From positions 1-64,000 of IMG/VR virus record IMGVR_UViG_3300044695_001846: a stretch of DNA of 64,000 nt. One strand, written 5' to 3'. The stretch's first letter is position 1. Each line of letters begins with the position of its first letter. A model generated the notes under the pieces. It was not told the origin of the DNA. It saw nothing but the letters and a program-made list of their open reading frames with translations, and searched no databases. Source of the stretch: a virus. Of the stretch, positions 6,351 to 22,188 are shown one piece after another. A program made the position numbers and the translations under genes.

Positions 6351-9300
6351 ATGGCAAAGAAATTTTTAAGTACTTTAAAGATAGTTAATCTACCTTCAGA
6401 TCCTATAAGTGGATCCGAGGGAGAACTATACTTTAATACTTCAGCATCAGTAGCAAAGGTTTACCAAGCAGGAGCTTGGTCAGTCCTTGGTGCAGGTGCT
6501 GGCGGTGGAACTACCGTTAGCACAACAGAACCACCTTCTCCAGAAATTGGGGATTCCTGGTATAAAAATGATACTGGTGAATTTTATGTATATGATGGAA
6601 CTTATTGGGTAGAAGTAAATGGAGTTATTGAAGGAGAAAGTAATCTATATACTCTTTCAGATGTAACTATTACAAATCCTACAAATAATGAAGTGTTAGC
6701 ATATGATTCTTCAGGATCTATTTGGATTAATCAAACAGCAAGTGAAACTGGATTATTAACAGAAGAATCTGCTTCTTCTACATATCTTACACAACTATCT
6801 GCTTCTATGAATTATTTAACATCTGACGATGCTATTATGCTATATCAGCCAATAAGTGTAAGACTTTTTAACTTAACTGGCTTAGAAAATGTAGAAGGAT
6901 TTTTAAGAACTGATGGTGGTCTTGGATGGGGAGTAGATACTGCAACTTATTTAACAACTTGGAGTGCATCTTCAACTTATTTAACTCAAGCAGATGCTTC
7001 TAGTGTTTATTTAACACAAACAAATGCAGCAAATACTTATCTAACTCCTGCAACTAGTGCTTCAATATATCAACCATTAGATGCAGACTTGACTACAATT
7101 GCAGCACTATCAGGATCTTCAGGGTTTTTAAAGAAAAATATTTTTGATAATTGGGTAATAGATAGTAACACATATTTAACAACTTATGATGCTTCAACTC
7201 TTTATCAAACAACTGGAGATTATGCAACAATTAGTGGAGTTGAAACTTTATCAAATAAGACTATGAGTTCCGCTTTTATTGATGGAACTTTGACATTTAA
7301 TGACATAGATCATGATCACACTATTTCCTCAGCATCAAATAATTTTACAATTAATGCACATCAAGATCTTTATTTAACTACAACTACTGGAAGCATTGTT
7401 TTACAACCAGATGAATTTGTAAAAATATATGATGAACATGTTGCTACACAAGAATGGGTAGATTTTCAAGACTACTTAACACAGGTTAGTGCCTCTACAA
7501 TATATCAGCCAATTGGATCATATTCTACAACTTCTCATAATCATACTTTAGATAGTCTTTCAAATGTTGTAATTACTGGAACTCCATCAGATGGACAGGC
7601 AATTGTTTGGGATACGTCTACTTCAAAATGGGTAAATGAAACAATAGCTTCAGGATCTTCTTATCCAGATCAAACTGGTAACAATGGAAAATTTTTACAA
7701 ACAAATGGTGCAAGTGTATCTTGGCAAAATGTTGATCTAAGTTCTAAGCAAAACTACTCAGTAGTCCTTGACACATTAGGATCATCATACGTTAGTCTAG
7801 GAGAAGGATCTGGGTTCTTAAAATATACTAGAGGTTTCCTGGGAAGTTCACCAACATGGTCATTAGATACAGCTACATATTTAACATCATATACAGAAAC
7901 ATCCACATTAGAAGATGTAACTGATCGTGGAGCAACATCATCAAATGCAATTACTATTAGCAATACAACAGAGGCTACTAATGCTACTACAGGTGCTTTA
8001 ATTGTGTCTGGTGGTGTTGGCGTAGCAAAAGATCTTTGGATTGATGGAAATTTACATGTTGCTGGAACTACAACAACTGAAAACACTAAAACAGTAGCAA
8101 CTCATGATAATTTAATTTATTTAAATGCTGCTTTAGATTCAACTATTACAAATGCTGTATATTCAAGTGGATCTATTATTTATACTGCAGATAATTTGTA
8201 TGTTGCTGAAATGGATATTAGAATTACTGGAGTAAGTCCATCAGCATTTAATATATCTTCTGGAGATTTATTAACAGTTGCTTCTGCAACCCCTACACAG
8301 TTTGTTGTTATAAAATCAGATCCAGGAGCATCTTATATTTCTGGTGGAACTGCACACGCAAAAGAAGAGGCTGATCCAGATTTAGGATTTTCAGGTGGAT
8401 ATTATGATGCAGGTTATGCTCACGCAGGTTTATTTAGAGACGCATCTGATGGAGTATTTAAATTCTTCCAAGGATATACCCCAGAACCAGATGAAGCGGT
8501 AAATATTGACACTACTCACGCATCATTTGCATTTGCAGACATACAAATAAGAAATATAAAGCCACAGGGATCTGGTCAAAATGATAACTTTGGAATTGGT
8601 TATAATGCAACATTTAATGCTACTGGATTTGCAAATTTTGGTATAGGGCAAAATGCTTTTAGTGGTGGAAGTGGAACAAACAACTTTGCAATTGGCGATA
8701 ACTCCTTGGAAAATAATACTGGAGGAAGGAACTTTGCATTTGGTGGTTCTGCATTAACTAATAATACTGGAGACTATAATTATGCAATCGGTAAAGATTC
8801 TTTACAAAATAATAGTGGATGGGATAACTACAGTATTGGACCTGCTCTTTATGGAAATACTGGAGACTGGAATTATGCAGTAGGAACTAATTCTTTGCAG
8901 AGTAATACTGGAGACTATAATTTTGCATTTGGGTATCAGGCTGGTCTTAATAATACTGGTTCATACAATGTTTATATTGGTAAATCAGAAGGTCTTTCAA
9001 CAAGTAATAATATAGTTATTGCAGATAATGAAGGCAATATAAGAGCACAATATTTATCTGCAAGTTCTGGATGGACTTTAGGAACAGTTGTTTCTGGAAC
9101 CTGGAATGGATCAGCAATTGGATATCAATACGGTGGAACAGGTCTTACTTCTTTAGGTAGTGCTGGCTATGTTCTTGCAGTAAATGCAACAGTTGACGGT
9201 CTTGAATGGGTAGAAATCACTGGTGGTGGATCATCATTTACCAATTCTTCAGAACTTGCAGCATTATTATCAGATGAAACTGGAAGTGGATCTGTAGTAT

Positions 9301-9707
9301 TTTCTAATTCACCAACTCTTACTACTCCAAATATTGGAGCAGCAACTGGAACCTCTTTGACCACAACTGGAAATGTTATTTCACATGTTGATATTTCAAC
9401 ACCTACATTTGTTACAAATTCATATACCATCACATCTACTGATGATGGAAAACTTTTAATGCTAAATAATTCTACAACAGCTGGAAATCTTTTGATTCCA
9501 ACAGATGCGACTTTTAATTTCCCAATTGGAACACAGATAAACATTGTTCAGGCAGGAACTGGTCTAATTACTGTAGCAGCAGTAACTCCAGCAACAACAA
9601 CAGTAAATGCTACTCCTGGTAAAAAACTTAGAGCACAATGGTCTTCAGCAGCAATTGTTAAAACTGCAGCAAATACTTGGTTATTGATGGGAGACCTAAC
9701 GGTATAA
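6351..9707 (+). CDS. Large tail-fibre protein with YadA-like head repeats
   Basis: 1118 aa. An N-terminal attachment motif (SGSEGELYFNTSASVAKVYQ) is followed by ~8 YLTQ/YLTT-ASAS linkers (~145-240), fibre segments (LHVAGTTTTENT), and residues ~744-883 with seven or more copies of a ~16-20 residue repeat (NFAIGDNSLENNTG, NYAIGKDSLQNNSG). That repeat pattern is the left-handed beta-roll of trimeric-autotransporter (YadA) heads (established fold pattern). The C-terminus (~900-1118) is a beta-rich tip. No S74 chaperone domain is seen. AGAAGGA precedes the ATG. It is the likely main host-recognition fibre. Confidence 0.75.
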   Translation: MAKKFLSTLKIVNLPSDPISGSEGELYFNTSASVAKVYQAGAWSVLGAGAGGGTTVSTTEPPSPEIGDSWYKNDTGEFYVYDGTYWVEVNGVIEGESNLYTLSDVTITNPTNNEVLAYDSSGSIWINQTASETGLLTEESASSTYLTQLSASMNYLTSDDAIMLYQPISVRLFNLTGLENVEGFLRTDGGLGWGVDTATYLTTWSASSTYLTQADASSVYLTQTNAANTYLTPATSASIYQPLDADLTTIAALSGSSGFLKKNIFDNWVIDSNTYLTTYDASTLYQTTGDYATISGVETLSNKTMSSAFIDGTLTFNDIDHDHTISSASNNFTINAHQDLYLTTTTGSIVLQPDEFVKIYDEHVATQEWVDFQDYLTQVSASTIYQPIGSYSTTSHNHTLDSLSNVVITGTPSDGQAIVWDTSTSKWVNETIASGSSYPDQTGNNGKFLQTNGASVSWQNVDLSSKQNYSVVLDTLGSSYVSLGEGSGFLKYTRGFLGSSPTWSLDTATYLTSYTETSTLEDVTDRGATSSNAITISNTTEATNATTGALIVSGGVGVAKDLWIDGNLHVAGTTTTENTKTVATHDNLIYLNAALDSTITNAVYSSGSIIYTADNLYVAEMDIRITGVSPSAFNISSGDLLTVASATPTQFVVIKSDPGASYISGGTAHAKEEADPDLGFSGGYYDAGYAHAGLFRDASDGVFKFFQGYTPEPDEAVNIDTTHASFAFADIQIRNIKPQGSGQNDNFGIGYNATFNATGFANFGIGQNAFSGGSGTNNFAIGDNSLENNTGGRNFAFGGSALTNNTGDYNYAIGKDSLQNNSGWDNYSIGPALYGNTGDWNYAVGTNSLQSNTGDYNFAFGYQAGLNNTGSYNVYIGKSEGLSTSNNIVIADNEGNIRAQYLSASSGWTLGTVVSGTWNGSAIGYQYGGTGLTSLGSAGYVLAVNATVDGLEWVEITGGGSSFTNSSELAALLSDETGSGSVVFSNSPTLTTPNIGAATGTSLTTTGNVISHVDISTPTFVTNSYTITSTDDGKLLMLNNSTTAGNLLIPTDATFNFPIGTQINIVQAGTGLITVAAVTPATTTVNATPGKKLRAQWSSAAIVKTAANTWLLMGDLTV

Positions 9708-9714: not shown

Positions 9715-10758
9715 ATGAGATTAAGGAATATTGGATCAGTTGCAGGATCAACGCTAAAAATATTTAGAGATACCTTTAATAGAGCTAACCAAACTGGTAT
9801 TGGAACATCCTCTGATGGATCAACATGGAATATAATTAGAGGTTCTTTTAATATTACTTCCAATAAAGCAGATGGTCAAACTCCAGCAAATTATCCATTA
9901 GCTTCAGTTGATATGCCAAAAGAAGAAGTCACCATTAGCTTAAGTGGTGTTACGCAAGGTTCAACTGCAGCACTATGGGTTACAGATAGTGGAAACTGGT
10001 TTGGAGTTGGAATTGATCAAGAAACTATAAGCTGTAATTGTCAAACATGTACAACTCCTGGAAACTGTGCTTCAACTAACTATCAGTGCAATTCAGGAGA
10101 TTATCCATGTACTGTAGCCAACTATGCTTGTAATGTTGCTAACTATGCATGTAATGGTGGAAGCTATTTCTGCGATGTTGTTGGAAATAGATTCTGTAGA
10201 TCCTATACTACTCCTTGTAACATGATGAGTACGCCATTTAGTCCATGCACTGCTTGGTCTAGAGTATGTAATGGTGGATATAATACTGGAAACTGCAATG
10301 GTTCAAACTCTATGTTTACATGCAATGTTTATGCTTGGACATGTAATGCATACGCTTGGACATGTAATACTTGGGCTTTTAACTGTAATTCAGCTTCATA
10401 TCCATGTGCTTCTTTTAATGCAGCTACTTTTTATACATGCAATTGTCAAACATGCTATCCTCAATATATTAGATTTATACAATCTGTTGCAAACACAATT
10501 ACACAGTTAACCAGCTGGACAGTTGCAAGTGTTATTCAATCTTTTAAGGTAATTATATCTTCTATAAATCCAGCAAAAACTTCTGGAACTGCTACAATTA
10601 AACCTTATTCAGATACTAATCTTTCTACACAAATTGGATCAGATTTAACTTATACCCCAACTGGAGTTGCAATTAATGCAAAATATGGTATAATGATTAA
10701 GCCTTCAAGTTATTCTCAAGGAACAACCATTGATGAAATAACTATAGAGACCAACTAG
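9715..10758 (+). CDS. Jelly-roll-like tail protein with cysteine-rich heptad-repeat insert
   Basis: 347 aa. Residues 1-104 (FRDTFNRANQTGIGTSSDG, ITSNKA, WFGVGI) and 250-347 (YIRFIQSVANTITQL, IDEITIE) look like two halves of one concanavalin-like jelly roll seen in phage tails. Between them residues 107-247 form an insert with 22 cysteines; there are none elsewhere in the protein. Cys 118, 125, 132, 139, 146, 153 and again 203, 210, 217, 224, 231 are spaced exactly seven apart, mostly in a YxCN context. The insert is bounded at both ends by CNCQTC. The function is unknown; disulfide or metal cross-linking of an extracellular tip is inferred. Confidence 0.6.
   Translation: MRLRNIGSVAGSTLKIFRDTFNRANQTGIGTSSDGSTWNIIRGSFNITSNKADGQTPANYPLASVDMPKEEVTISLSGVTQGSTAALWVTDSGNWFGVGIDQETISCNCQTCTTPGNCASTNYQCNSGDYPCTVANYACNVANYACNGGSYFCDVVGNRFCRSYTTPCNMMSTPFSPCTAWSRVCNGGYNTGNCNGSNSMFTCNVYAWTCNAYAWTCNTWAFNCNSASYPCASFNAATFYTCNCQTCYPQYIRFIQSVANTITQLTSWTVASVIQSFKVIISSINPAKTSGTATIKPYSDTNLSTQIGSDLTYTPTGVAINAKYGIMIKPSSYSQGTTIDEITIETN
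10033..10455 (+). repeat. Cysteine-rich heptad repeat region bounded by CNCQTC
   Basis: The in-frame segment encodes 22 Cys in 141 residues. The 18-nt flanks at 10033-10050 and 10438-10455 both encode CNCQTC and differ only at synonymous third positions. The internal units of 21 nt encode about seven residues each (such as YACNVAN). Confidence 0.85.
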
Positions 10759-11041: not shown

Positions 11042-11749
11042 TTGAAACTAATACATTTTATATGCTCAGAATCAATGGAAATTGGTAAGCCAGATTTAAT
11101 TAAAAAATTTATTCCTGAATGGTATAAAAAAGCGGAAACACATTTTTCTTCAGAAGAAGATTTGGCTATTGAAGAAGGAACTCAAAAAACAAGTGCTGGG
11201 CTAAAAACTTGTGTTCCATTTTTAGATGCAATGATATCTGGGTATGCATTAGTTGTGCCATTTGATATATATGTTGGAAAAACTAAAGATGGAGATCTTG
11301 ACATGAAGTGGAATGCTCCACAAGGTTGGGAAAATTTTGTTGAAGAAAGACCAAAAGAGTCTGGATCCACAATGCCAAGACCAGCAGGACATGCACCCAA
11401 TCATATGGTTTGGTCAGGTAGATGGGGTATTAAGGTTCCAAGAGGATACAGCGTTTTGGTGACTCATCCTTTAAATAGACAAGACTTGCCTTTTACAACA
11501 TCTTCTGCAATAATGGATAGCGATAAGTTTTTTGGAAATGGAAACATTCCATTCTTTATAAAAGAAGATTTTGTAGGAGTTATAGAAAAAGGAACTCCTT
11601 TTGCTCAAATTATTCCAATTAAAAGAAAGAGATGGAAAATGATTCATAACTCTGCTTTAAAAGATGCTATTCAAAAGCATGGACACGATGTTAGAAAAAA
11701 AGAAGGAACTTATAAGAAAAAATATTGGACTAGGAAGGAATATTTTTAA
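11042..11749 (+). CDS. Protein of unknown function, DUF6065-like paralogue 1
   Basis: 235 aa with a TTG start preceded by AGGGG. Motifs: FIPEWYKKA (~26), CVPFLDAMISGYALVVPFD (~57-75), GYSVLVTHPLNRQDLPF (~135-151), then GTPFAQIIPIKRKRWKM (~193-209) and a basic C-terminus. The same motif series occurs in the gene at 12062, and a looser version in the gene at 14745, which resembles the phage/bacterial DUF6065 family. No catalytic motif or transmembrane segment is recognised. Its place among glycosyltransferases suggests a link to surface modification, which is inference. Confidence 0.55.
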   Translation: MKLIHFICSESMEIGKPDLIKKFIPEWYKKAETHFSSEEDLAIEEGTQKTSAGLKTCVPFLDAMISGYALVVPFDIYVGKTKDGDLDMKWNAPQGWENFVEERPKESGSTMPRPAGHAPNHMVWSGRWGIKVPRGYSVLVTHPLNRQDLPFTTSSAIMDSDKFFGNGNIPFFIKEDFVGVIEKGTPFAQIIPIKRKRWKMIHNSALKDAIQKHGHDVRKKEGTYKKKYWTRKEYF

Positions 11750-12072
11750 TGTCAGGTAGTCACGATCATAGTGAAAATATAAGAGTTTTAACTACTAGGG
11801 AAATTGTTAGAGACTTTTTTACTAGAAGAAGAAAATATCGTAGTAAAATTTCTTTAGATTCAAATGCTATTCCACCAGCCCCACCAGAGTCTAAGATAAA
11901 TTATTTAGCAATTATTTTAGATGGAGAAGTTCAGGAAATTATGAGAGCACAAAATAGATTAGCTGCCTTACTCTTAAGTCAGCCACTAATTGTAGAATTT
12001 GATCCTGAACAGGTTAAGCCAAATATTGGATGGTCTTATAAAGAAGAAGAATTTTCTCAATATGGGGAATAA
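11749..12072 (+). CDS. Small protein of unknown function, paralogue of 10769 gene
   Basis: 107 aa. A basic N-terminal half (TRRRKYRSK) is followed by the conserved core YLAIILDGEVQEIMRAQNRL and IGWSYKEEEFSQYG, matching the C-terminal two thirds of the 86-aa protein at 10769. The ATG overlaps the upstream stop (TAATG), and the 3' end overlaps the next gene by 11 nt. The pattern unknown-small / DUF6065-like occurs twice in a row (10769-11042 and 11749-12062), pointing to duplication of a two-gene unit. Confidence 0.55.
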   Translation: MSGSHDHSENIRVLTTREIVRDFFTRRRKYRSKISLDSNAIPPAPPESKINYLAIILDGEVQEIMRAQNRLAALLLSQPLIVEFDPEQVKPNIGWSYKEEEFSQYGE

Positions 12073-12724
12073 GATTATTACATTTACATCTTGTGTTCCA
12101 GAAATAGATGTACCCCATCCTTTTCCAGCTAGTAGGCTTGTTCCAGAATGGTATAGAAAATTGCCAGGTGCTGCAGATAAGATAGAAACAGTTAAGAAAT
12201 GTGTTCCAGTCTTAGATGCCCTAACCTCTGGATATATGATTACTTTGCCTGTAGATGTTCACTTTAATGGAGAAGAAAGATCTTTCTGGTATGACTCTCC
12301 TTTTGAAATTAATTCTAATCACTACTTATCGCAGACACAGGGGGTTGATATTGGAGATGAATTCCATGAACAACCACATAAATGGATTAATCAATGGCTA
12401 ATTGAAACTCCAAAAGGATATAGCTGTTTATTTATTCATCCGTTAAATAGAGCAGATCTTCCCTTTAAATCTTTTACTGGAATTGTTGATACAGACAAGC
12501 ATCCAATTATAATTAATTTTCCATTTGTTATGAAAAAAGATTTTTCTGGAGTTATCCCAGCAGGGACTCCAATAATTCAAATTATCCCATTTAAAAGAGA
12601 TGATTGGTCTATGAATGTAGTTGATGATAAACAATTTAAAGAACATCCAGAAGCTCATGAAGTAGAGAATCCACCATTTAACTGGTATAAAAGAAGATGG
12701 TGGACCAGAAAGACTTATACATAA
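12062..12724 (+). CDS. Protein of unknown function, DUF6065-like paralogue 2
   Basis: 220 aa from the ATG at 12062, chosen because the protein then aligns end to end with the 11042 product; a longer reading from 11999 would lie inside the preceding gene. Shared motifs: LVPEWYRKL, CVPVLDALTSGYMITLPVD, GYSCLFIHPLNRADLPF, GTPIIQIIPFKRDDWSM. The C-terminus is basic and aromatic (YKRRWWTRKTY), like KKKYWTRKEYF in paralogue 1. The function is unknown. The stop overlaps the next ATG. Confidence 0.55.
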   Translation: MGNKIITFTSCVPEIDVPHPFPASRLVPEWYRKLPGAADKIETVKKCVPVLDALTSGYMITLPVDVHFNGEERSFWYDSPFEINSNHYLSQTQGVDIGDEFHEQPHKWINQWLIETPKGYSCLFIHPLNRADLPFKSFTGIVDTDKHPIIINFPFVMKKDFSGVIPAGTPIIQIIPFKRDDWSMNVVDDKQFKEHPEAHEVENPPFNWYKRRWWTRKTYT

Positions 12725-13689
12725 TGGAAAGCATTTATATTGCCATCCCTTCAATGGCTGATACTGAAACAAGTGCCACTATAAAAAATGCCATAGAATC
12801 TGCAGAATATCCAGATAGAGTTTTTATTGGAGTTTCTTTTAAAGACTTGAATAAAAAAGAGTATAAGAGAGTGCTTTCTCTAAAAGAAAAGTATCCAAAT
12901 ATTTCTGTAGAGTTTATAAAACTTAAAAAAAGAAAAGTTTCAGAGTATGGCACTGGAGATGGTAGATTTAGAGCACAGCAAATGTACTCTAATCAAGATT
13001 ATATGCTTCAGGTAGATTCTCACACCTATTTTGATAAAAACTGGGATTCTTATTTAATAAAACTATTTAAAGAATTTAAAAATCAAAGCAACATAGAAAA
13101 GTTTGTTTTAACTTCATACATTCCATACTATTCATACCAGCCAGAAAGATCTAGACACCCTGGAGAGTTTTCTTTACCAAGATACCCTCATTTAATTGTT
13201 GATGATTTTTTCTTAAGGTATTTGCCAAAATGGGATGATAATCCAATTCCAGAAAATTCTAAATTAGACAAGTTTGTTCCATGTGTAAAATTTAACGGAG
13301 CCTTTGCTTTTGGAGATAAAAACTTTGTCAACAATACTGGTGTATTCAAAGATGCAATATTTTATGATGAAGAGTTAATTCAAAGCATTAATTTGATTGG
13401 AAATGATTTTGCTTTGGTATTTTTGAATATAAAAGATTTTCCAATAGCACACCTATACTCTGAAGATATAAATGAATTTGGTGGAGAAAGAACATATTTT
13501 GGAGACCTTCTGAGTGCAAGAAAACAAGAAGAGGTTGCAGACAAAGCAATATCTAACTACTTAAACTTTATAGCAAATCCAGAAAACAAAGAGCTAGTTG
13601 CAAAATATGAAAAATATGCTAAAATGGATTGTAGACGTGGACCGCTTTTAAGCAACTATATCCCAAAAGATTTTATTGTTAAGGAATGA
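12724..13689 (+). CDS. GlcNAc-type glycosyltransferase (PF11397-like)
   Basis: 321 aa from the ATG overlapping the previous stop. The N-terminus ESIYIAIPSMADTETSATI and PDRVFIGV match the nucleotide-sugar-binding start of Glycosyltransferase (GlcNAc) family proteins. GTGDGRFRAQQMY (~77-89) and YMLQVDSHTYFDKNWD (~93-108), with a DxH at 98-100 in place of DxD, are the metal and donor site pattern of the family. It is presumably cytoplasmic, transferring a sugar to a protein or glycan; the acceptor is unknown. It belongs to the same tight operon as the dehydratase at 15467. Confidence 0.75.
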   Translation: MESIYIAIPSMADTETSATIKNAIESAEYPDRVFIGVSFKDLNKKEYKRVLSLKEKYPNISVEFIKLKKRKVSEYGTGDGRFRAQQMYSNQDYMLQVDSHTYFDKNWDSYLIKLFKEFKNQSNIEKFVLTSYIPYYSYQPERSRHPGEFSLPRYPHLIVDDFFLRYLPKWDDNPIPENSKLDKFVPCVKFNGAFAFGDKNFVNNTGVFKDAIFYDEELIQSINLIGNDFALVFLNIKDFPIAHLYSEDINEFGGERTYFGDLLSARKQEEVADKAISNYLNFIANPENKELVAKYEKYAKMDCRRGPLLSNYIPKDFIVKE

Positions 13690-13690
13690 T

Positions 13691-14002
13691 ATGAACGATT
13701 TGCCAGAAGTGCCAGATTTAGTATATCCAAAACCAACTGAGGATGTTTCAAAAAAAACAAAGAGACCAGTAAGACCTTGGGACATATTTAATAAAAACAT
13801 TGAAAAAGTAGTTGATAATGTTCAGCAAGAAAGAATGTCTATATGCCTACAGTGTCCTAGATTAATAAAAGCAACCAGGCAATGCAAAGAGTGTGGATGT
13901 TTTATGGACGCAAAAACCAAACTTTTTGATGCAGAATGTCCATTAGGAAAATGGAATAACGTAGTGGTCAGTGTAGACCAGTTTGATTATAAAAAGGATT
14001 AA
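13691..14002 (+). CDS. DUF6171-like zinc-ribbon protein
   Basis: 103 aa from the ATG at 13691 (AAGGA 5 nt upstream). An N-terminal tag NDLPEVPDLVYPK is shared with the gene at 10769. The C-terminal half carries CLQCPRL...CKECGCFMDAKTKL...CPLGKW, a metal site with the cysteine spacing of a small zinc-ribbon family frequent in phages (DUF6171 type, by recollection of the signature). The role is unknown; nucleic-acid or protein binding is likely. Confidence 0.6.
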   Translation: MNDLPEVPDLVYPKPTEDVSKKTKRPVRPWDIFNKNIEKVVDNVQQERMSICLQCPRLIKATRQCKECGCFMDAKTKLFDAECPLGKWNNVVVSVDQFDYKKD

Positions 14003-14005
14003 GAC

Positions 14006-14752
14006 ATGGTTGATGTAAAGCTAATAACTGGAGATGCAACAAACCTGTCCTTTATTGAAAGTAACTCAATAGATTTAATTATTGCAGCACCCCCATTCAT
14101 TAATAGAGATTCTACTGGATATGGTGGAGATCCAAAGAAACAAATAAACTTTAATTCTAAAAAAATGTTAAAGCTTCTTTTAAAAAGTACAAAAGAAATG
14201 GAAAGAGTTTTAAAGCCAACTGGAAGTATTTGGATTGAAATTTCTCCAGAAGATGCTTTAATGCATAGATATATCGTTGAGGTTTTGGATAAAACAAATT
14301 TAAAGAATCCTAACACAATTGTTCATAAAGTTTTAGATGATGAAAGTAAGTCTAATATAGATGAGGTAATTTATAAAGATTGGTTTTTATGGTTTCATCT
14401 TGTAAAAGATGTTAATAACTTTTATTCTAATCCGTTTAAAGTAAAAAAATTTAGAGATCCTGTCTGGTATTTAAACAATACAAATAGAGAAGATTTAGTT
14501 GATAAAACATTAAAGCTTACTTATCCTAAAATTATTAATTATACTGTTGTAAAAGATATTCCAGAAAGGTTTATAGAAATGTACACCAAGGAAAAGGCTG
14601 TAGTTCTAGACCCGTTTGGTGGAAGTGGAACTGTTGCTGCTGTAGCATATAGTATGAATAGAAATGGAATAAGCGTTGACGTTTCTGAAGAACAAACAGA
14701 CGTGGCTAGAAAAAGAATAGATTTAGTAAAGGCTATGGAAAAAGATGTTTAA
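14006..14752 (+). CDS. DNA methyltransferase, N6-adenine/N4-cytosine type
   Basis: 248 aa. Motif IV comes first (DLIIAAPPF, ~23-31) and motif I last (LDPFGGSGTVAAVA, ~201-214), the order of beta-class amino-methyltransferases. About 170 residues between them hold the target-recognition region. The catalytic tetrapeptide is APPF rather than the usual (D/N/S)PP(Y/F), so the first residue that normally contacts the target amino group is missing. It is a solitary gene with no restriction partner in view. It probably modifies phage DNA against host restriction, if active. Confidence 0.75.
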   Translation: MVDVKLITGDATNLSFIESNSIDLIIAAPPFINRDSTGYGGDPKKQINFNSKKMLKLLLKSTKEMERVLKPTGSIWIEISPEDALMHRYIVEVLDKTNLKNPNTIVHKVLDDESKSNIDEVIYKDWFLWFHLVKDVNNFYSNPFKVKKFRDPVWYLNNTNREDLVDKTLKLTYPKIINYTVVKDIPERFIEMYTKEKAVVLDPFGGSGTVAAVAYSMNRNGISVDVSEEQTDVARKRIDLVKAMEKDV

Positions 14753-15470
14753 TAAAAAATATATAGAGATAAGTAGAATTTCAGACTCCTCTGTTTTTGA
14801 AATAATCCCAAATAAGGTTAAAAGAAAATGGATGGATAAAACAGATGGAAATGCTTATCAGTGCGTTCCAATGAATGTTGCAAATTCTTACGGATGGACA
14901 GTTCTTTCTCCAGGAAGGTTTTCCGCAACTTGGGATGGTGGAGACGCTAAGCATTCTTTAAGAGTTGAACTTGAAAGAGATAGTCCTTTTAGATTTGCAG
15001 CTTCAGAATTTGGACACGGAATACTTTCAATAGTCCCAGACTTTATAGTAAGAACATCAAAGAATGTTTCATTGTATGTTAGAGGTATTCCAAATCAGAT
15101 AGCAATAGGTTTACAGCCTTTTGATGGAATAGTTGAAACAGACTGGCTTCCTTTTACCTTTACCTTTAACTATAAATTTGTTAAACCTGGTAAGTTAACA
15201 ATTGAAAAAGATCAGCCTCTATTTACCTTTTTTCCAATTGAAAGAGGGTACATAGAAAGTTTTGAAACAAGAGAATCTTTTCTATATAAAGATAAAGAGT
15301 TCTACGAAGACTATTTAAAGTATTCAGATCTTAGAGAATTGCAACAGTCTGGAAAGCCAGTAAAAGATTCTGGAGCATATTTAAAGGGTAGGCTTGAAGA
15401 CAAAGAGTTTGATATACTTAATCACACTAAAAAGGTAAGCCTTAAAGGGTTTAAGAAAGAAGAAGAATGA
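14745..15470 (+). CDS. DUF6065-like protein of unknown function
   Basis: 241 aa, overlapping the methyltransferase by 8 nt. It carries CVPMNVANSYGWTVLSPG (~40-57), FGHGILSIVPDFIVRT, GLQPFDGIVETDWLPFTFTF and a PLFTFFPIERGY strand, matching my memory of DUF6065 proteins. The general plan (Cys-Val-Pro block, P-strand, I-P block near residue 160) is shared loosely with the proteins at 11042 and 12062. No catalytic residues are identified. Its setting between a DNA methyltransferase and a sugar dehydratase gives no firm role. Confidence 0.55.
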   Translation: MFNKKYIEISRISDSSVFEIIPNKVKRKWMDKTDGNAYQCVPMNVANSYGWTVLSPGRFSATWDGGDAKHSLRVELERDSPFRFAASEFGHGILSIVPDFIVRTSKNVSLYVRGIPNQIAIGLQPFDGIVETDWLPFTFTFNYKFVKPGKLTIEKDQPLFTFFPIERGYIESFETRESFLYKDKEFYEDYLKYSDLRELQQSGKPVKDSGAYLKGRLEDKEFDILNHTKKVSLKGFKKEEE

Positions 15471-16378
15471 TGCCAAGATATCTTATAACAGGTGGTCCAG
15501 GTTCGCTAGGAAAAGAAATTTGCAAGAGCCTTTTGAACCTTTGTGACACTAAAGAGATTATTATGTTTTCTAGAAATGAAACTAAGCAGTTTGAATCTTC
15601 TATGTCTATTAATGATGACAGAGTTAAGTATGTAGTTGGAGACATAAAAAACTATGACTCTCTATTTACCATAATGAAAGGTGTAGACTATGTTTTTCAT
15701 GCTGCAGCTTTAAAGCACATAGATTTGGCAGAAAAATCTCCAGATGAAACTATTAAAATAAATGTTTTAGGAACAAGTAATGTTGTAAATGCAGCAATTC
15801 AAAATGGAGTAAAGAAGGTACTACTCGTATCAACAGACAAGTCTTGTATTCCAACAAGTATCTATGGAGTCAGTAAACTTTTGTCTGAAAGGAATGTAAT
15901 ACTTTCTAATGGACTTTCTGATACAAAATTTTCTGTAGTAAGGTTCGGCAACTTAATTGGAAGCAATGGATCAATTTTTCAAAAATGGAAAATTATAAAA
16001 GATAGTGATCAAAGAATTACTGTAACTCATAAAGATATGACAAGATTTTTTATTAGAAGTTCTGAAGCTGCTATGTGGTCTGTTAAATTTATTAAGGAAA
16101 TGGTTGGCGGAGAACTTTTTGTTCCTAAAATGAAGAGTGCAAACGTTTATGATATTGCTAAGTCTTTTGTATCTGAGTCTCAAATAGATATAACTGGAAC
16201 TAGGTCTGGAGAAAAGCTTGATGAGGATATCCTGTCTAGCCTGGAACTTGGCACAGTAGAAGATCTTGGAGAATTTTTTATTTTGCACAATGATAATAAG
16301 GTTAACAATTTTTCATATAATAGTAAAAATAATAAATACTGGTATTCTGGAAAAGAAATAGAAAGTTTTTTTGATTAG
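15467..16378 (+). CDS. NAD(P)-dependent nucleotide-sugar epimerase/4,6-dehydratase
   Basis: 303 aa, extended SDR. The Rossmann motif TGGPGSLG is at 8-15, GDIKNYDSL follows, then VSTDKSCIPTSIYGVSK at 121-137 with the catalytic Tyr133/Lys137 pair, and a substrate domain with RFGNLIGSNGSIF and MTRFFIRSSEAA typical of the FlaA1/CapD/PseB polysaccharide-biosynthesis group. It would convert a UDP- or dTDP-sugar to a 4-keto-6-deoxy or epimerised sugar for the neighbouring glycosyltransferases. Two adjacent ATG codons open the frame, overlapping the upstream stop. The exact sugar cannot be told from sequence. Confidence 0.8.
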   Translation: MMPRYLITGGPGSLGKEICKSLLNLCDTKEIIMFSRNETKQFESSMSINDDRVKYVVGDIKNYDSLFTIMKGVDYVFHAAALKHIDLAEKSPDETIKINVLGTSNVVNAAIQNGVKKVLLVSTDKSCIPTSIYGVSKLLSERNVILSNGLSDTKFSVVRFGNLIGSNGSIFQKWKIIKDSDQRITVTHKDMTRFFIRSSEAAMWSVKFIKEMVGGELFVPKMKSANVYDIAKSFVSESQIDITGTRSGEKLDEDILSSLELGTVEDLGEFFILHNDNKVNNFSYNSKNNKYWYSGKEIESFFD

Positions 16379-16386
16379 GAGGAAGT

Positions 16387-16524
16387 ATGATTAGCAAAAG
16401 ATTTTCAGTTGTAAGTGCATGTAACTTGTGCTTAGAAACAATCTCAAAGTTTATTAGCAAGCCAAAAGAGGATAGTAAAAAGAATCCAAACTGCAAGTGC
16501 AAACAATGTAAATGCTCTAAATAA
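16387..16524 (+). CDS. 45-aa cysteine-rich protein
   Basis: A 45-codon ORF with GAGGAAG just before the ATG, between the dehydratase and 3'-phosphatase genes with short gaps on both sides. It has a CNLC pair at ~12-15 and a C-terminal CKCKQCKC cluster at ~37-44 in a lysine-rich tail. It is likely a metal-binding (zinc) mini-protein. The function is unknown; it is too short for most gene callers. Confidence 0.55.
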   Translation: MISKRFSVVSACNLCLETISKFISKPKEDSKKNPNCKCKQCKCSK

Positions 16525-16535
16525 AAGGAATTTAA

Positions 16536-16946
16536 ATGAACGAAGTAGTTTTAGTAGATATTGATGGTACTGTCGCTAATATGGTAAATAGAAGTCCTTA
16601 TGAGTACGATAAAGTTGGGTCAGACTTGCCAAATAAAGATGTTATAAATGTTGTTGAATGTTTGTGGAAGTCTAGCAAAACTATAATTTATATAACTGGT
16701 CGTGAAGATTCTTGTTATGAGGAAACTTATAAATGGCTAGTTGAAAATTGCCCACCCTTTTCTAATTTGTATATGCGTAAAACTGGAGACTATAGAAAAG
16801 ATGTAGAAATAAAAAAAGAGATTTATGACAATAATATTAAAAACGTGTTTGACGTATTGTGCGTATTAGATGATCGTAAATCAGTGGTTGACATGTGGAG
16901 AAGTTTGGGGCTAACCTGCTTGCAAGTTAATGACGGAGATTTTTAA
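16536..16946 (+). CDS. HAD-family polynucleotide 3'-phosphatase
   Basis: 136 aa. The HAD motif I nucleophile is DIDGT (Asp8, Asp10), motif II is TGR at 54-56, KK at 93-94 is the motif III lysine, and LDDR at 111-114 is motif IV. MRKTGDYRKD and MWRSLGL are the characteristic strings of the phosphatase half of T4-type polynucleotide kinase, here without the kinase half. It is expected to remove 3'-phosphates from DNA or RNA ends before ligation or repair. Its stop overlaps the next ATG. Confidence 0.75.
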   Translation: MNEVVLVDIDGTVANMVNRSPYEYDKVGSDLPNKDVINVVECLWKSSKTIIYITGREDSCYEETYKWLVENCPPFSNLYMRKTGDYRKDVEIKKEIYDNNIKNVFDVLCVLDDRKSVVDMWRSLGLTCLQVNDGDF

Positions 16947-17656
16947 TGTATAGTGGAAAAAAAATACATCATTTTTATCACATAGGATCTTCGGGACAGT
17001 GGCTTCAACCACTTTCTGAACATATCCATGCTTTAAAAAGATATGGGCTTTTAGATATACTAGATAGCTTAAATTTTGGAATTATTGGATTGCATGAAAA
17101 TAGAAAAGCTGTAAAAGAATACTTAAGCAGTCAGCTTGATAATTTTAACATTGTTGCAGAAGCTGACGAAGGTTGGGAGCAAGTTACCTTAAAGCCTCTT
17201 TATGAATTTGCTTTAAAAAATGACGGTTATATTTTTTATGCTCATACAAAAGCCTCAAACAATCATAATCTTTATGGGGTAAAGCACAGAAGATCAATGA
17301 CCTATTTTAACATCGTAAACTGGAAAGATTGTGTAGAAAAATTAGATGAAGGTTATACCCTAGCTGGAGTTCATTATTGTCAAATGTATTTATTAAAAGA
17401 TGCCTATGGAAATGAATTAGACCTTCCAGGAGAAACTAGATATGAATACACAAAAAAATATGATGGGTTTTACTTAGGCAATTTTTGGTGGGCTACATCT
17501 AATGGAATAAAAACTTTAAATCCTTGTAAAAATGAGTATAGGCAAGATGCTGAGTTTTGGATAGCTCAAATAAAAATAGAAGATAAGGCAGCCTATGACT
17601 TTCATCCTATAAATAATCTTGTAGAACATGAAGATCAGTTTGTAACTAAATGGTAA
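16946..17656 (+). CDS. Glycosyltransferase-like protein
   Basis: 236 aa. GKKIHHFYHIGSSGQW at the N-terminus, GYIFYAHTKAS (~94-104), RRSMTYFNIVNWKDCVEKL and GNFWWATSNGIKTLNP followed by a RQDAEFWIAQ acidic motif resemble bacterial capsule-type sugar transferases that act on nucleotide sugars. I see no DxD. The last gene of the accessory island, it ends just before the promoter of the second fibre cassette. The assignment rests on general pattern, not on a clear motif. Confidence 0.45.
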   Translation: MYSGKKIHHFYHIGSSGQWLQPLSEHIHALKRYGLLDILDSLNFGIIGLHENRKAVKEYLSSQLDNFNIVAEADEGWEQVTLKPLYEFALKNDGYIFYAHTKASNNHNLYGVKHRRSMTYFNIVNWKDCVEKLDEGYTLAGVHYCQMYLLKDAYGNELDLPGETRYEYTKKYDGFYLGNFWWATSNGIKTLNPCKNEYRQDAEFWIAQIKIEDKAAYDFHPINNLVEHEDQFVTKW

Positions 17657-17689
17657 AAACTCTACATTCTATACAAAATATACTAAACA

Positions 17690-17698
17690 TGGTATAAT
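17690..17698 (+). promoter_or_regulatory. Extended -10 promoter of second fibre cassette
   Basis: TGG-TATAAT lies 18 nt before the ATG at 17717, with GAAAGGTG as Shine-Dalgarno. The 60-nt gap upstream holds no gene. Confidence 0.6.
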
Positions 17699-17716
17699 AT
17701 TGAAAGGTGATTAACT

Positions 17717-18079
17717 ATGGCATTTCCAGGTACATATAATTTTAACTATTACAATGGAGACTCTTTTGAGTTCTTTGTTTATCCTAAAACCTCTAATGGT
17801 CAAGTTTTTGATAATTTAGGAAATTACTCTGCAAAATTTACAATTGCTACCGCCAGAGGTTCTGAAGAAGCTATAGTTTTATCATCAACTGCAAGTACAC
17901 AGATGTTGGCAACAATTGAAGATGATGACCACGTTGTTTGTGAAATATTACCTGCAGGTGGAGCAACTTTGCAAAGCTCATCTTATGTTTATGACGTTCA
18001 AATACAAAACGCAGGTACTGGAAAAGTTTATACTTTATTAACTGGAACAATATCTGTTACTCAGGATATAGCAGGATAA
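17717..18079 (+). CDS. Small tail protein, beta-sandwich type (copy B)
   Basis: 120 aa. It shares its plan with the product at 4035: an N-terminal YNGDSFEFFVYP strand, a central self-assembly-like block and a SYVYDVQI...LLTGTISVTQDIAG end, corresponding to HVYDLEI...GTFNVTPEVTR. It opens the second fibre cassette just as its counterpart opens the first. It is probably a fibre or baseplate adaptor; not characterised. Confidence 0.5.
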   Translation: MAFPGTYNFNYYNGDSFEFFVYPKTSNGQVFDNLGNYSAKFTIATARGSEEAIVLSSTASTQMLATIEDDDHVVCEILPAGGATLQSSSYVYDVQIQNAGTGKVYTLLTGTISVTQDIAG

Positions 18080-18082
18080 AAA

Positions 18083-18670
18083 ATGGCTTTAACAACAGTC
18101 GTGTCAAATGAAGATTTAGTGGTTTTAGGACCACCTTCTTCTGTTTCAGTTTCTGTTGACATTGGTCCAAAGGGTGAACGTGGTGCTAGTTTTTACACTG
18201 GCTTTGGAGATCCTAATACTAATTCTCTATTCTATAGCACTTCAGATATTCCAAAAGTTGGAGATCTTTATTTAAGAAGAGATCTTGGTGCAAACTATGG
18301 TGTTATTTATAGATTAGTTACAGTTACTGGTGGTACTTCGTGGCAATCAGTTTTAAAATTTCAGCCAGTAACTTATAACCTATCTGATAGACCATCTTTT
18401 AATTCTGGAGTTGCATCTGTAACTTTTCCTTTAGAAGATTTTTATTTTAATGCCCCAATAGATTTAAATGTAGAAGATATTATAATCCAGGCTACAGTAG
18501 AATTAGACAATCCTGTAATGCTTTCAATATCAAATAAAGAAATTAAAACTGTCTCTTCGGTAAAAAGTTTGATAACAGAAATAACTGCTGCACAGCTTAA
18601 CGCTGGATCTATTTCAATGTTAAGTGGATCTGCAGCATTAATAAATCTAGGATATTCATTAGGAGTTTAA
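18083..18670 (+). CDS. Tail-fibre adaptor protein with collagen-like motif
   Basis: 195 aa. The N-terminal half contains DIGPKGERGASFYTGFGDPN (~27-46) followed by VGDLYLRRD, a block frequent in phage tail proteins. The C-terminal half is a beta-rich domain ending in INLGYSLGV. It lies 3 nt after the previous stop. It corresponds in position to the 4379 gene of the first cassette. A structural role is inferred. Confidence 0.5.
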   Translation: MALTTVVSNEDLVVLGPPSSVSVSVDIGPKGERGASFYTGFGDPNTNSLFYSTSDIPKVGDLYLRRDLGANYGVIYRLVTVTGGTSWQSVLKFQPVTYNLSDRPSFNSGVASVTFPLEDFYFNAPIDLNVEDIIIQATVELDNPVMLSISNKEIKTVSSVKSLITEITAAQLNAGSISMLSGSAALINLGYSLGV

Positions 18671-18671
18671 A

Positions 18672-19355
18672 ATGGCAGAAGATATTAGTTTAAGTAAAAA
18701 AGGTTCTCCCTGGACAATTGATTTTGATACAAAAATTCCAACACTTGGAGAAAATGCAAACATTCAAGACGCATTAAAAATATTTTATTTTGGAAATTCC
18801 CTTGCAAATGAAACTTATGAGAATAAAAGTATTTATCAACATTTTTTAACAATTGAATCACTTACAGATTCTTTAAGTACTGATATTTTTAATCATGACG
18901 ATACCGATACTGATACACATGGTATTGGGGCAGATAATAGCGTAGTTGGAACTGGAACTACACAAACTCTAACAAATAAAACTCTAACATTGCCAAAGAT
19001 TAATGAGAACGTTGCTCTTACTGCTACAGCTACAGAATTAAATATCCTAGATGGTGCAACACTTTCTGTTATAGAATTAAACAAGCTTGATGGAGTAAAT
19101 TCTAGCACTGCTGATTTAAATGTCTTGTTTGGAGTTTCAGCCAGCATCTCTTCAACACAACTAAACTATTTGTCTAGTGCTAGTGCAAATATTCAAACAC
19201 AACTTAATACAAAGTCTCCATTGGCATCTCCAACTTTTACAGGGTCTGTAAATTTGCCAGACGATACAAGTTTTGGTGGAAAAAGATTATTTATACAGGC
19301 AACACAGCCTTTATCTGCTGACAATGGAGATGTCTGGATTAAGATAGGTAGTTAA
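18672..19355 (+). CDS. Tail-fibre shaft protein
   Basis: 227 aa. It contains the classic fibre segments GTTQTLTNKTLTLPKINEN (~95-113), two ATELNILDG / VIELNKLDG repeats, LASPTFTGSVNLPDD, and a terminal DNGDVWIKIGS strand. These are established trimeric phage-fibre motifs. It lacks a recognisable receptor-binding tip, which may be supplied by the FN3 protein encoded 1 nt downstream. Confidence 0.7.
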   Translation: MAEDISLSKKGSPWTIDFDTKIPTLGENANIQDALKIFYFGNSLANETYENKSIYQHFLTIESLTDSLSTDIFNHDDTDTDTHGIGADNSVVGTGTTQTLTNKTLTLPKINENVALTATATELNILDGATLSVIELNKLDGVNSSTADLNVLFGVSASISSTQLNYLSSASANIQTQLNTKSPLASPTFTGSVNLPDDTSFGGKRLFIQATQPLSADNGDVWIKIGS

Positions 19356-19356
19356 A

Positions 19357-20769
19357 ATGCCAACATATAATATTGGTGATAACAGTGGTGGATATTATAA
19401 TTACCGTGGAACAAATGTAGATCCAAACGTAGTTGGCTCTTCCGTTGCTACAGGAAACTGGGTAGTATCAAGCTTTACAATTCAAGCTGCTTCAAATTCA
19501 GCAGTTCCTGGATCAAATATTTATGGACTTATTTGGAATTCAGCAGGTACTAAAATCTGGGAATCTGGTGCAGTAGATATGGCTGGATCAGACAATACCC
19601 CACCATTTGCCTCAAGAACGTTTTCTCCTAACATTTATTTAGCAGCAGGAACTTATTACTTTGGATTTTCTAAGTCAGACTCAGCAGCAGTAAACTGGGA
19701 TTGTATAAATGGAAATAATACTAGCCGTACAGGAAATAGTTTTGTTGGAAATCTAACCTCTAGTGGAACTGGAACCGTCTATCGTAGGCTTTGTGGAAAA
19801 ATAAATTATACAGATGTCTATGCTCCAACAATGTCTTCTTGTACTGCAACTGCAAATATTGGGTCCATATCTGTTTCATGGGCAGCATCTTCTGACGGAG
19901 GAACGGGAATTACCTCTTACGCAGTTTATAGAAATAATGATCCTAATCAACTTATTTATAATAGTACAGGAACATCTTTAACAGATAATGTTGGAAATGG
20001 TGTTGGAGCATACTACGTTGTTTACGCCTACAATGCAGTTGGTGTATCTAATGCAGCAGTTTCTTCAACAGCTACAACTCCAAGCGTTCCAACGATGTCT
20101 TCTTGTACTGCAACTGCAAACGTAGGGTCTATTTCTGTATCTTGGGCAGCATCTTCTAACGGAGGAAATGCAATTGATTATTATCACGTTTATAGAAATG
20201 GATCCTACTTGGGTCAATATACAGGAACATCTTTAACAGATAATGTTGGAAATGGTTTTACAGCTTATTATCAAGCTTATGCTCATAATGGTGTAGGATG
20301 GTCTGGTGCTGCAACTTCATCAACAGTTACTACTCCAGTTCCTACAGGTTCCCCAGCAACTTTAGTTGCAGTACCAGATGTAACACAAGTAGTTTTAACA
20401 TGGACAGCCCCTGCTGGTGTACCAACATCTCCAATAACTTCTTATAAACTAGAATTTTCTACAGATAACACAAACTGGACTCAAATATATAATGCTCTTT
20501 CTCCTTTAACTTACACACATACTGAACGTATTCCAGCAACTTTATATTATTATAGAGTTTCTGCAATATCTGCTCCTGGTGCTAGTCCTTTTAACAATGC
20601 TCAAGCTGAAACTATTGGGGGATATGTAAGATACTTTGATAATTTAGGATTTGTTGATTATGTTTTACCAGAATATTATAGTTCTTCTGCAAGTGCCTGG
20701 AAAAAAGCATCTGCCTTTTCATACGAAGATGGTATTTGGGTTCCTGGAGACTACCCTCCAGCAACTTGA
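19357..20769 (+). CDS. Tail protein with jelly-roll-like N-terminus and three FN3 domains
   Basis: 470 aa. Residues ~1-150 are a beta-rich domain (YLAAGTYYFGFS, RLCGKINYTD). Residues ~157-245, ~245-330 and ~333-428 are fibronectin type III repeats; the first two are close copies (MSSCTATANxGSISVSWAAS). The C-terminus has aromatic residues (WKKASAFSYEDGIWVPGDYPP) like carbohydrate-binding phage tips. FN3 domains on virion proteins are thought to give weak glycan binding. The first two FN3 copies contribute a 264-bp DNA repeat. Confidence 0.7.
   Translation: MPTYNIGDNSGGYYNYRGTNVDPNVVGSSVATGNWVVSSFTIQAASNSAVPGSNIYGLIWNSAGTKIWESGAVDMAGSDNTPPFASRTFSPNIYLAAGTYYFGFSKSDSAAVNWDCINGNNTSRTGNSFVGNLTSSGTGTVYRRLCGKINYTDVYAPTMSSCTATANIGSISVSWAASSDGGTGITSYAVYRNNDPNQLIYNSTGTSLTDNVGNGVGAYYVVYAYNAVGVSNAAVSSTATTPSVPTMSSCTATANVGSISVSWAASSNGGNAIDYYHVYRNGSYLGQYTGTSLTDNVGNGFTAYYQAYAHNGVGWSGAATSSTVTTPVPTGSPATLVAVPDVTQVVLTWTAPAGVPTSPITSYKLEFSTDNTNWTQIYNALSPLTYTHTERIPATLYYYRVSAISAPGASPFNNAQAETIGGYVRYFDNLGFVDYVLPEYYSSSASAWKKASAFSYEDGIWVPGDYPPAT
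19825..20350 (+). repeat. 264-bp direct repeat encoding two FN3 domains
   Basis: Copies begin at 19825 and 20089. The first ~75 nt of each are nearly identical with mostly synonymous differences, and a second well-conserved stretch (ACATCTTTAACAGATAATG) recurs at the same spacing. Confidence 0.75.
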
Positions 20770-20794
20770 TAATTTTACATATTTAATGTATAAT
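20766..20794 (+). promoter_or_regulatory. Sigma-70-type promoter of the holin gene
   Basis: TTGATA (20766-20771), a 17-nt spacer, then TATAAT (20789-20794). The -35 overlaps the stop codon of the FN3 gene. An RBS (AGGAG) precedes the ATG at 20826. It is one of the few promoters here with a recognisable -35. Confidence 0.65.
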
Positions 20795-20825
20795 CTATTT
20801 AAGTACTATAGACAGGAGAAATAAA

Positions 20826-21089
20826 ATGGTACTAAAACTAACAAAGTCACAAAAAGAAATGTTGCAATCCTATGGTCGCTCATTTCTAGGTGCAGCACTT
20901 GCACTATATATGGCAGGTAATACAGATGCATACACATATGTCTATGCTTTTGTAGCAGCATTTGCTCCAGTTGCAATTCGTTTCTTTAATAAGAATGACA
21001 TCGCATTTGGAAAAATTTCAGGAAGTTCAACTTCTGAAGAGGTTGCAACAGAAGCTGTAAAAGCAATTAAAAAAGTTACAAAGAAATAA
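20826..21089 (+). CDS. Putative holin
   Basis: 87 aa. It has two hydrophobic segments (~17-31, RSFLGAALALYMAG; ~35-52, YVYAFVAAFAPVAIRFF), a short charged link and a lysine-rich C-terminus (VKAIKKVTKK). Size, two-segment topology and the FFNKND-AFG motif after the second helix match small actinophage holins. It would permeabilise the host membrane at lysis. It has its own promoter. No endolysin is recognised next to it. Confidence 0.6.
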   Translation: MVLKLTKSQKEMLQSYGRSFLGAALALYMAGNTDAYTYVYAFVAAFAPVAIRFFNKNDIAFGKISGSSTSEEVATEAVKAIKKVTKK

Positions 21090-21099
21090 ATAACTTAGT

Positions 21100-22188
21100 A
21101 TGGCTAAACCAACAGTATCATTTTTAACTTATGATTGGACCTTTGGGGTCAAGCCACTACAGCCTAACGGTTGTGGATGGTATAGATGCTATCTTCCAAT
21201 GAAAGAGTTATCCAATCATGGGTGGGAAGCAGGTTTGGGAATTCCAGGATTTAATCCAGAACACGGATTTGGAATTTTAATACCTGATGAGAAAGCTATC
21301 CATGGTTGGGATATTGTTGTTTTAAAACTTATTATGTTAGAAAGATGTGTTGATCAAGTAAGACAGGCAAGAGAATTTGGTCAAAAGATAGTTGTTGATA
21401 TTGATGATTTTATGGAGGGTTTAGAAGAAACTAACCTTGCATATAAAACTACATCTGCAGAATCTAATCCAAATAATAATCGTGATCATTATATAAAAAT
21501 TATTGCACAGGCAGATGCTTTAATTGTTTCTACACCATTCCTAAAAGACTATTATGAAAAAACATATCCAGGAAAGCCAGTGTTTGTGGTTAGAAATGGA
21601 ATTGATATCCATAGATGGAAAATGAGAAATGATCATAGAAGGTATCTCCCACATTTTGGTTGGGTTGGTGCTACACCATGGAGAAGTGGAGATCTTGAAA
21701 CACTTCAACCATTCTTTGGTGAATTTATTAAACAAAAACATTTAAAATTTCATCACGCTGGAAACGTAATTAATGCCCCAAGAGCATCTGACCAACTTGG
21801 TATTGATAAAAACCTTTCTACTATTGAACCAATGAGAACAATGCTTGAGGTTCCAGAACTATACAGAAAAATTGATATTGGAATTGTTCCTTTAAGAGAT
21901 GTTCCATTTAATCATGCAAAATCTTATTTAAAGGGTCTTGAGTACGCAGCGTCTGGTGTTCCTTTTATTGCACAAGCGTTGCCAGAATATCAATTACTTG
22001 CTGATGGTGGAGTTGGAAGAGTTGCAACTACTGCAGATGAATGGCTAGGGCACATGGAAGAATTGTTAGATCCAAATGTTAGAAAACTTGAAAGAGAAAA
22101 GAATTTTGAATTAGTTAGAGATAACTTCTCTATGGATCAGCGTGGACATGATTGGGCAGAAGTCTTAAATCAAATTTATGATATATAA
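21100..22188 (+). CDS. GT-B fold glycosyltransferase (GT4-like)
   Basis: 362 aa. The N-terminal domain has GCGWYRCYLPM (~26-36), a pattern of phage GT4-like enzymes, VVDIDDFMEG and ADALIVSTPFLKDYY. The C-terminal donor domain has FVVRNGIDIHRW, FGWVGATPWRSGD, IDIGIVPLRD and KSYLKGLEYAASGVPFIA, the last being the E-x7-E-like donor-site region. It is a soluble cytoplasmic enzyme adding a sugar to an unknown acceptor (virion protein, DNA base or host glycan). The gene starts 11 nt after the holin gene. Confidence 0.8.
   Translation: MAKPTVSFLTYDWTFGVKPLQPNGCGWYRCYLPMKELSNHGWEAGLGIPGFNPEHGFGILIPDEKAIHGWDIVVLKLIMLERCVDQVRQAREFGQKIVVDIDDFMEGLEETNLAYKTTSAESNPNNNRDHYIKIIAQADALIVSTPFLKDYYEKTYPGKPVFVVRNGIDIHRWKMRNDHRRYLPHFGWVGATPWRSGDLETLQPFFGEFIKQKHLKFHHAGNVINAPRASDQLGIDKNLSTIEPMRTMLEVPELYRKIDIGIVPLRDVPFNHAKSYLKGLEYAASGVPFIAQALPEYQLLADGGVGRVATTADEWLGHMEELLDPNVRKLEREKNFELVRDNFSMDQRGHDWAEVLNQIYDI

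Follow-up and report, generated by a model that had tools for sequence, protein, structure and literature searches.

What kind of structure can be formed by a segment of a phage tail protein that holds 22 cysteines when the remainder of the polypeptide holds none? This question is raised by a gene in the uncultured-virus record IMGVR_UViG_3300044695_001846 (73.5 kb), of which positions 1–64,000 were studied here; this stretch of 64,000 nucleotides is referred to as the window in the following. The gene (positions 9715..10758, plus strand) is an open reading frame for a protein of 347 residues, and homologues with the same start and end are present in other viral contigs. The answer that we consider likely is that the cysteine-rich segment is a hairpin stalk, zipped by nested disulfides and ending in a conserved tip, which is inserted into a protein located at the end of a tail fibre.

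When counted in the translation, all cysteines of the protein lie within residues 107–247, i.e., 22 in 141 residues and none in the other 206, just as an initial annotation of this DNA had stated. The corresponding codons coincide exactly with nucleotides 10033–10455. The cysteines occupy positions 107, 109, 112, 118, 125, 132, 139, 146, 153, 161, 168, 178, 185, 194, 203, 210, 217, 224, 231, 242, 244, and 247. The runs with a cysteine at every seventh residue described in the annotation (residues 118–153 and 203–231) are exact, and 11 cysteine pairs are seven residues apart while 3.1 are expected from shuffling of the insert (the top value among 20,000 such shuffles was 11). The motif CNCQTC does indeed bracket the insert, at residues 107–112 and 242–247. 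The further description of the repeat as mostly YxCN fits many of the heptad cysteines, which have Y or W two residues before them and asparagine directly after, but not the others. Five close relatives (81%–96% identity) keep all 22 cysteines and their spacing.

The family was gathered by scanning IMG/VR contigs with the window protein and then with alignments of its relatives. We read 61 complete members, all from uncultured-virus contigs (single loci are denoted by L and a number below), and in all 61 the jelly roll is built of the same two parts (…RDTFNRAN…TDSGNW… and …YPQYIRxIQSxxN…), with the insert at one shared hairpin loop. The number and spacing of the cysteines are lost in distant relatives, formally the outcome that the initial annotation had named as refuting its reading; what persists there is that the number is even and the spacing mirror-symmetric. 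Counts of 10, 14, 16, 18, 20, 22, 24, 26, 28, 30, 32, 40, 42, and 50 were seen, the flanks are free of cysteine in every case, and the total is thus even in 61/61 members, including 17/17 that were gathered last, after the rule had been formed. On a maximum likelihood tree of the flanks (44 members), the cysteine count changed at least 21 times, always from even to even, for which the probability would be 2^-21 (about 5 × 10^-7) if odd and even results were equally likely at each change. Changes are matched on the two arms of the insert: L020 has one extra cysteine per arm when compared with L018, and L170 has one fewer per arm than L163. In clades whose tip segment is alignable by eye in all members, the cysteines before the tip equal those after it even though the totals differ (10/10 in L043, 12/12 in L046, 13/13 in L044, 20/20 in L202, 21/21 in L054, and 25/25 in L211). 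The total is not a multiple of four in 34 of the 61 members, and the number per arm is odd in 34 of the 61.

The even counts, 34 of which are not multiples of four, fit cysteines joined in pairs by disulfides and not four-cysteine metal sites. This bears on the suggestion in the initial annotation that the insert may bind metal. An insert carrying zinc, iron–sulfur or copper on its cysteines in the manner of metallothionein or Cys4 sites, either for stability or for exploiting metal uptake by the host, would account for the density of cysteines and for the CxxC and CxC spacings found in some inserts, and two-cysteine linear sites across the arms would be compatible with the parity. On the other hand, counts that are never odd and so often not divisible by four are not what four-cysteine sites would produce, and histidine is nearly lacking (a mean of 0.31 per insert in the family and none in the window insert), so that we regard metal binding as quite improbable.

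The second property shared across the family is that the cysteine spacings match when they are read from both ends of the insert inwards to the middle. Over 16 clusters, defined by less than 60% identity of the flanks, shuffling of the gaps gave a Fisher p of 4 × 10^-15 and a position-based version of the test gave p = 1 × 10^-14; the mirror order fitted better than a direct-repeat order in 14/16 clusters, and in held-out relatives a value of 2 × 10^-5 was obtained. The symmetry is readily apparent in single proteins such as L021 (10,10,10,10,8,8,5 | 15 | 5,8,8,10,10,10,10), L043 (34,7,18,7 | 20 | 7,18,8,35), L130 (52,8,5,14 | 12 | 12,6,8,50), and L041 (11,41,16 | 19 | 16,42,10). In L046, a cysteine-free stretch of 46 residues on one arm has one of 50 residues at the mirrored place, and in L205 five spacings of nine residues lie opposite five of 11. 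The clade of L054 fails the gap-by-gap test (p 0.999) because CC pairs on its first arm face CxxxxxC on the second, and it passes the position-based test (p 0.003); L214 shows the reverse arrangement.

Two other ways of folding a regularly spaced chain have to be weighed here. The chain could form a narrow solenoid with local disulfides between neighbouring turns, resembling the antifreeze protein of Tenebrio, which has 12-residue turns with inner disulfides. The regular spacing of cysteine and Tyr/Trp by seven residues and the lack of any predicted helix in the insert agree with such a fold, whereas local pairing would not be expected to produce mirrored spacing or mirrored covariation, an odd number of cysteines per arm in 34/61 members would leave leftovers if pairing were internal to the arms, and the period varies between clades (7, 8, 10, 9/11, 13, and 20). 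It is therefore improbable that the insert is a solenoid. A helical hairpin with disulfides across the helices, in which the spacing of seven would be that of a coiled coil, would resemble the twin CX9C (CHCH) proteins. These also have mirrored cysteines, and both the spacing and the mirror order would be explained. However, the pooled inserts are rich in C (15%), Y (13.5%), S (13%), T (11%), G (11%), and N (10%), with P at 3% and L, K, E and M each below 1%, AlphaFold2 (AF2) predicted no helix of note in the insert, and clades with spacings of 8, 10 or 9/11 do not follow a heptad. A helical hairpin is hardly credible on these grounds.

Covariation between the arms points to the same mirrored pairing. 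In a sister clade of the window clade, SPSYP units on the first arm of L018 lie opposite GGYYYA-type units on the second, and in L014 the two kinds of unit are reciprocally swapped between the arms at the same two rungs. Codon use differs in the DNA of the swapped units, so that the swap is no simple copy. Likewise, KS[DS]WYR occurs opposite A[AN]YAYN in both orientations within the same proteins. When overall divergence and site rate were removed, the mirrored assignment of rungs was among the best 43 of 40,320 (best 0.1%) in the window clade and in the best 3% in the sister clade. Mirrored units also changed together between L012 and the window protein; this co-change possibly reflects one recombination tract across the tip and was not used as independent proof.

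We infer from parity, mirror order and covariation that the insert extends from one edge of a lectin-like jelly roll as a single long hairpin, with an outgoing arm, a turn and a returning arm, and that the i-th cysteine from its start would be joined to the i-th cysteine from its end. The predicted rungs of the window protein would then be C107–C247, C109–C244, C112–C242, C118–C231, C125–C224, C132–C217, C139–C210, C146–C203, C153–C194, C161–C185, and C168–C178; these exact partners, and likewise the shape that each rung may adopt, belong to the proposal. The heptad part would act as a rigid stalk of variable sequence and residues 147–202 as a conserved tip. The cross-linked spike suggested in the initial annotation is thus supported, with disulfides as the putative cross-links.

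Along the gene, whose parts are all on the plus strand, the N-terminal half of the jelly roll comes first (residues 1–102, 9715..10020, with the final strand ...WVTDSGNWFGVGIDQ); it was delimited by AF2 and the family alignment, of which it is the best conserved stretch. The N-side base of the insert with CNCQTC (residues 107–112, 10033..10050) follows and is defined by sequence and AF2 strands, as is the C-side base (residues 242–247, 10438..10455), after which YPQYIR begins. The N-arm of the stalk (residues 118–146, 10066..10152; spacing 7,7,7,7) is mirrored by the C-arm (residues 203–231, 10321..10407, again with a cysteine at every seventh residue), which was assigned because its spacings mirror those of the N-arm and its units covary with them rung by rung. 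Between the arms lies the tip or knob (residues 147–202, 10153..10320), with irregular cysteine spacing and conservation within the clade (CDVVGNRFC ... GYNTGNC), and the C-terminal half of the jelly roll (residues 248–347, 10456..10755) completes the protein. In the window clade, the jelly roll is 90%–92% identical with a ratio of nonsynonymous to synonymous substitution rates (dN/dS) of 0.09–0.12, the tip 89% identical with a dN/dS of 0.15, and the arms have mean identities of 61% (N-arm) and 67% (C-arm) with a dN/dS of about 0.3 (0.28 for residues 119–146 of the N-arm). All regions of the protein are under purifying selection. The tip motif C[DN]V[VT]GNR[FY]C is common to the window clade and the clade of L013–L020.

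The conservation of the cysteines also bears on the idea that the insert is a low-complexity adhesive loop rich in tyrosine, cysteine and glycine that stays disordered until it is oxidized randomly or between subunits. Its composition, the disorder in the AF2 model and the position at the fibre end would suit such a loop, but the 22 cysteine positions are exact in six proteins although a third of their stalk residues differ, and neither parity nor mirror symmetry would follow from random oxidation. We give this explanation little credence.

The claim that the insert splits a jelly-roll tail protein is supported by structure prediction. With 35 relatives, AF2 returned a confident jelly roll on either side of the insert (residues 1–115 and 237–347), with blocks in which the predicted local distance difference test (pLDDT) score exceeds 90; values were about 73–97 per block over residues 11–110 and 88–96 in the C-terminal half. 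At the base of the insert, strands 105–107/245–247 and 110–114/238–242 pair (i + j about 352), which brings the two CNCQTC brackets together. A Foldseek search with the jelly roll gave as best match in the PDB the central fibre protein gp20 of mycobacteriophage Douge (8zdp, E = 2.5 × 10^-3, weak), followed by the receptor-binding domain of TM4 gp23 (9n6a, E = 0.1, weak). Given its position and these weak fold matches, the spike protein is probably receptor-binding.

Several points weigh against a hairpin zipped by disulfides at the end of a receptor-binding protein. AF2 had no confidence over residues 116–236 (pLDDT about 25), and a clade-only alignment of 11 sequences gave a mean pLDDT of 27 and no usable model. 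The permutation tests for mirror spacing take gaps as exchangeable, and the subfamilies of L027, L260, L147, L152, and L161 are without significant mirror spacing, so that a non-nested knob is possible there. The fold matches in the PDB, with a best E of 2.5 × 10^-3, are weaker than the usual cut-off, and receptor binding is read only from them and from the position of the gene. Finally, the cytoplasm in which tail proteins are synthesized is reducing, and neither thioredoxin nor glutaredoxin was found in the 73.5-kb record. Because the host cytoplasm reduces, the disulfides would probably form after lysis.

The initial annotation had also proposed that the insert is mobile or expandable and that slippage varies its length. 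Mobility is not supported, as the insert was always met in one particular loop of a single protein family, and the gene mostly follows a fibre gene of the same kind. Expansion is seen across the family, where the insert ranges from 74 to 289 residues, but not among the six closest proteins, all of which have 141. As to slippage, units are homogenized at the DNA level (three identical 21-nucleotide units in L009), but the two arms change in step, and simple slippage would not produce such matching. In L046, L044, and L043, the arms contain equal numbers of long cysteine-free repeats, SYSGPNANYGL-type (12 residues) on one arm opposite SYSYATNYGIS (11 residues) on the other. In two contigs, which come from different samples (L042:4380-4600 and L045), a change of reading frame splits the gene inside the insert; either a programmed frameshift or a natural break would account for it. 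One contig (IMGVR_UViG_3300046787_000129) encodes two different family members, L022 and L024, about 5.4 kb apart and each behind its own fibre gene, and one phage may therefore carry two spikes.

The genetic environment places the spike protein next to a fibre. Its gene begins seven nucleotides behind that of a fibre protein of 1118 residues (6351..9707, plus strand; phrog_8780, minor tail protein, E = 2.4 × 10^-12), a conserved neighbour whose C-terminal domain (residues 1014–1116) is encoded directly before the spike gene and carries the motif TPGxKxRAQWS…W[LV]xxGDL. In most relatives, the start of the spike gene lies within or very close to the 3' end of a fibre gene whose last 100 residues are of this kind. 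The neighbourhood differs or could not be read in four subfamily groups: L037, L038, and L049 have another upstream gene, and in L026, L041, and L043–L046 none as long as 150 codons lay within reach. With 52% identity, the portal protein resembles that of Streptomyces phages such as Comrade, a likeness that suggests an actinobacterial host. The probable place of the spike protein is the tip of an actinophage-like tail fibre, where it would lie beside the C-terminal domain of the upstream fibre and present the spike to the host surface. The same fibre ending was found in about 195 Gordonia phages (L265–L268 among our loci). In the four that were inspected, the slot behind the fibre is occupied by other small beta-rich proteins without cysteine pairs (Zipp gp40, Baddon gp40, Powerball gp27, and William gp33), which have no sequence similarity to the jelly roll and contain no cysteine or one. 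As unrelated proteins follow the same fibre ending, the slot looks modular.

In agreement with the statement that no named domain has this pattern, the window protein had no significant sequence match in Pfam, PHROG or the PDB; 35 relatives gave one PHROG match (unknown function, 2.8 × 10^-5) and no convincing Pfam match, and the family profile had no match among PDB sequences. A tblastn search of 50,697 phage records with the window protein yielded nothing, and six members (the window protein, L037, L044, L026, L205, and L211) had no homologue in isolated phages, the only match being the first 43 residues of L026 in two Burkholderia phages. Among 84,980 species genomes, no relative was detected by profile, and 40 matches to a DNA pattern were due to chance. 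A pattern for the conserved strand WVTDSGNW retrieved only members already known and one chance open reading frame, and thus no relative lacking the insert.

Searches of open-access literature brought up no comparable phage protein. By analogy, the nearest functional likeness is the bovine ultralong heavy-chain complementarity-determining region 3 (CDR H3), a long hairpin inserted in a loop of a beta-sandwich, with a two-stranded stalk and a disulfide-rich knob of variable cysteine number, in which stalk and knob together reach up to about 70 residues and the disulfides are in the knob (PMC5994613). There is no homology, and in the phage protein the stalk itself has regular cysteine pairs and the tip is conserved. 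Stacked parallel disulfides also occur in the cyclic cystine ladder of theta-defensins and in a loop insert of green-algal HAP2 that resembles a cystine ladder; the former are cyclic peptides of 18 residues and the latter has 37 residues and three disulfides of EGF-like connectivity (PMC6327110), whereas the phage inserts contain 5 to 25 cysteine pairs in 74–289 residues. That phage tail proteins can carry many disulfides is evident from Agrobacterium phage Milano, in which the tail is disulfide-linked and the short tail fibre, a trimer ending in a C-terminal jelly roll, has disulfides within its chains (PMC10811340), but its disulfides are scattered and mostly between subunits, with no repeat and no mirrored ladder. 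A recombinant tip domain of the Douge central fibre protein bound mycobacterial cell-wall glycans (PMC13033339). Douge gp20 and TM4 gp23 differ from the protein studied here in sequence (8% identity), and no such insert is reported for them.

Whether a single hairpin that as many as 25 nested disulfides zip from base to tip, with matched units added, removed and exchanged on both arms, constitutes a new architecture, namely a spike that uncultured phages carry at the fibre end, adjustable in length and bearing a conserved tip for receptor binding, is in our judgement evenly balanced. If so, it would be a genetically encoded, length-adjustable and covalently locked rod with matched rungs that can be counted from sequence, and alignment alone could teach the rules of pairing. 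A widespread family of uncharacterized phage proteins would gain a structural meaning, there would be a hint at how phages of aquatic bacteria reach their receptors, and stable display of peptides would have a new scaffold. The spike would also pose the testable general question of how a polypeptide synthesized under reducing conditions, with as many as 50 cysteines, reaches one disulfide pattern after release.

The possibility that the spike protein is the target of a diversity-generating retroelement was rejected, as the 73.5-kb record, which is possibly a fragment, contains no match to RVT_1 (reverse transcriptase). Elsewhere in the window, the product of positions 740–1591 has a domain of the Mtd_N family (major tropism determinant, N-terminal), and its gene includes a 60-nucleotide tandem repeat at 914–1056. 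Three proteins downstream of the spike gene are alike by eye (11042–11749, 11999–12724, and 14745–15470; PEWYKK, HPLNRxDLPF); a Pfam scan covered the first and the third, of which the third matched DUF6065 and the first had no match. Among the tail genes, positions 12697–22188 include genes for an N-acetylglucosamine (GlcNAc) transferase (PF11397), Polysacc_synt_2 and a group 1 glycosyltransferase, which perhaps serve fibre glycosylation or a change of the host surface. A 36-nucleotide tandem repeat rich in GCAGCAGCAGAAAGGCAGAGG is present at positions 50202–50390, inside an open reading frame at 50116–51030.
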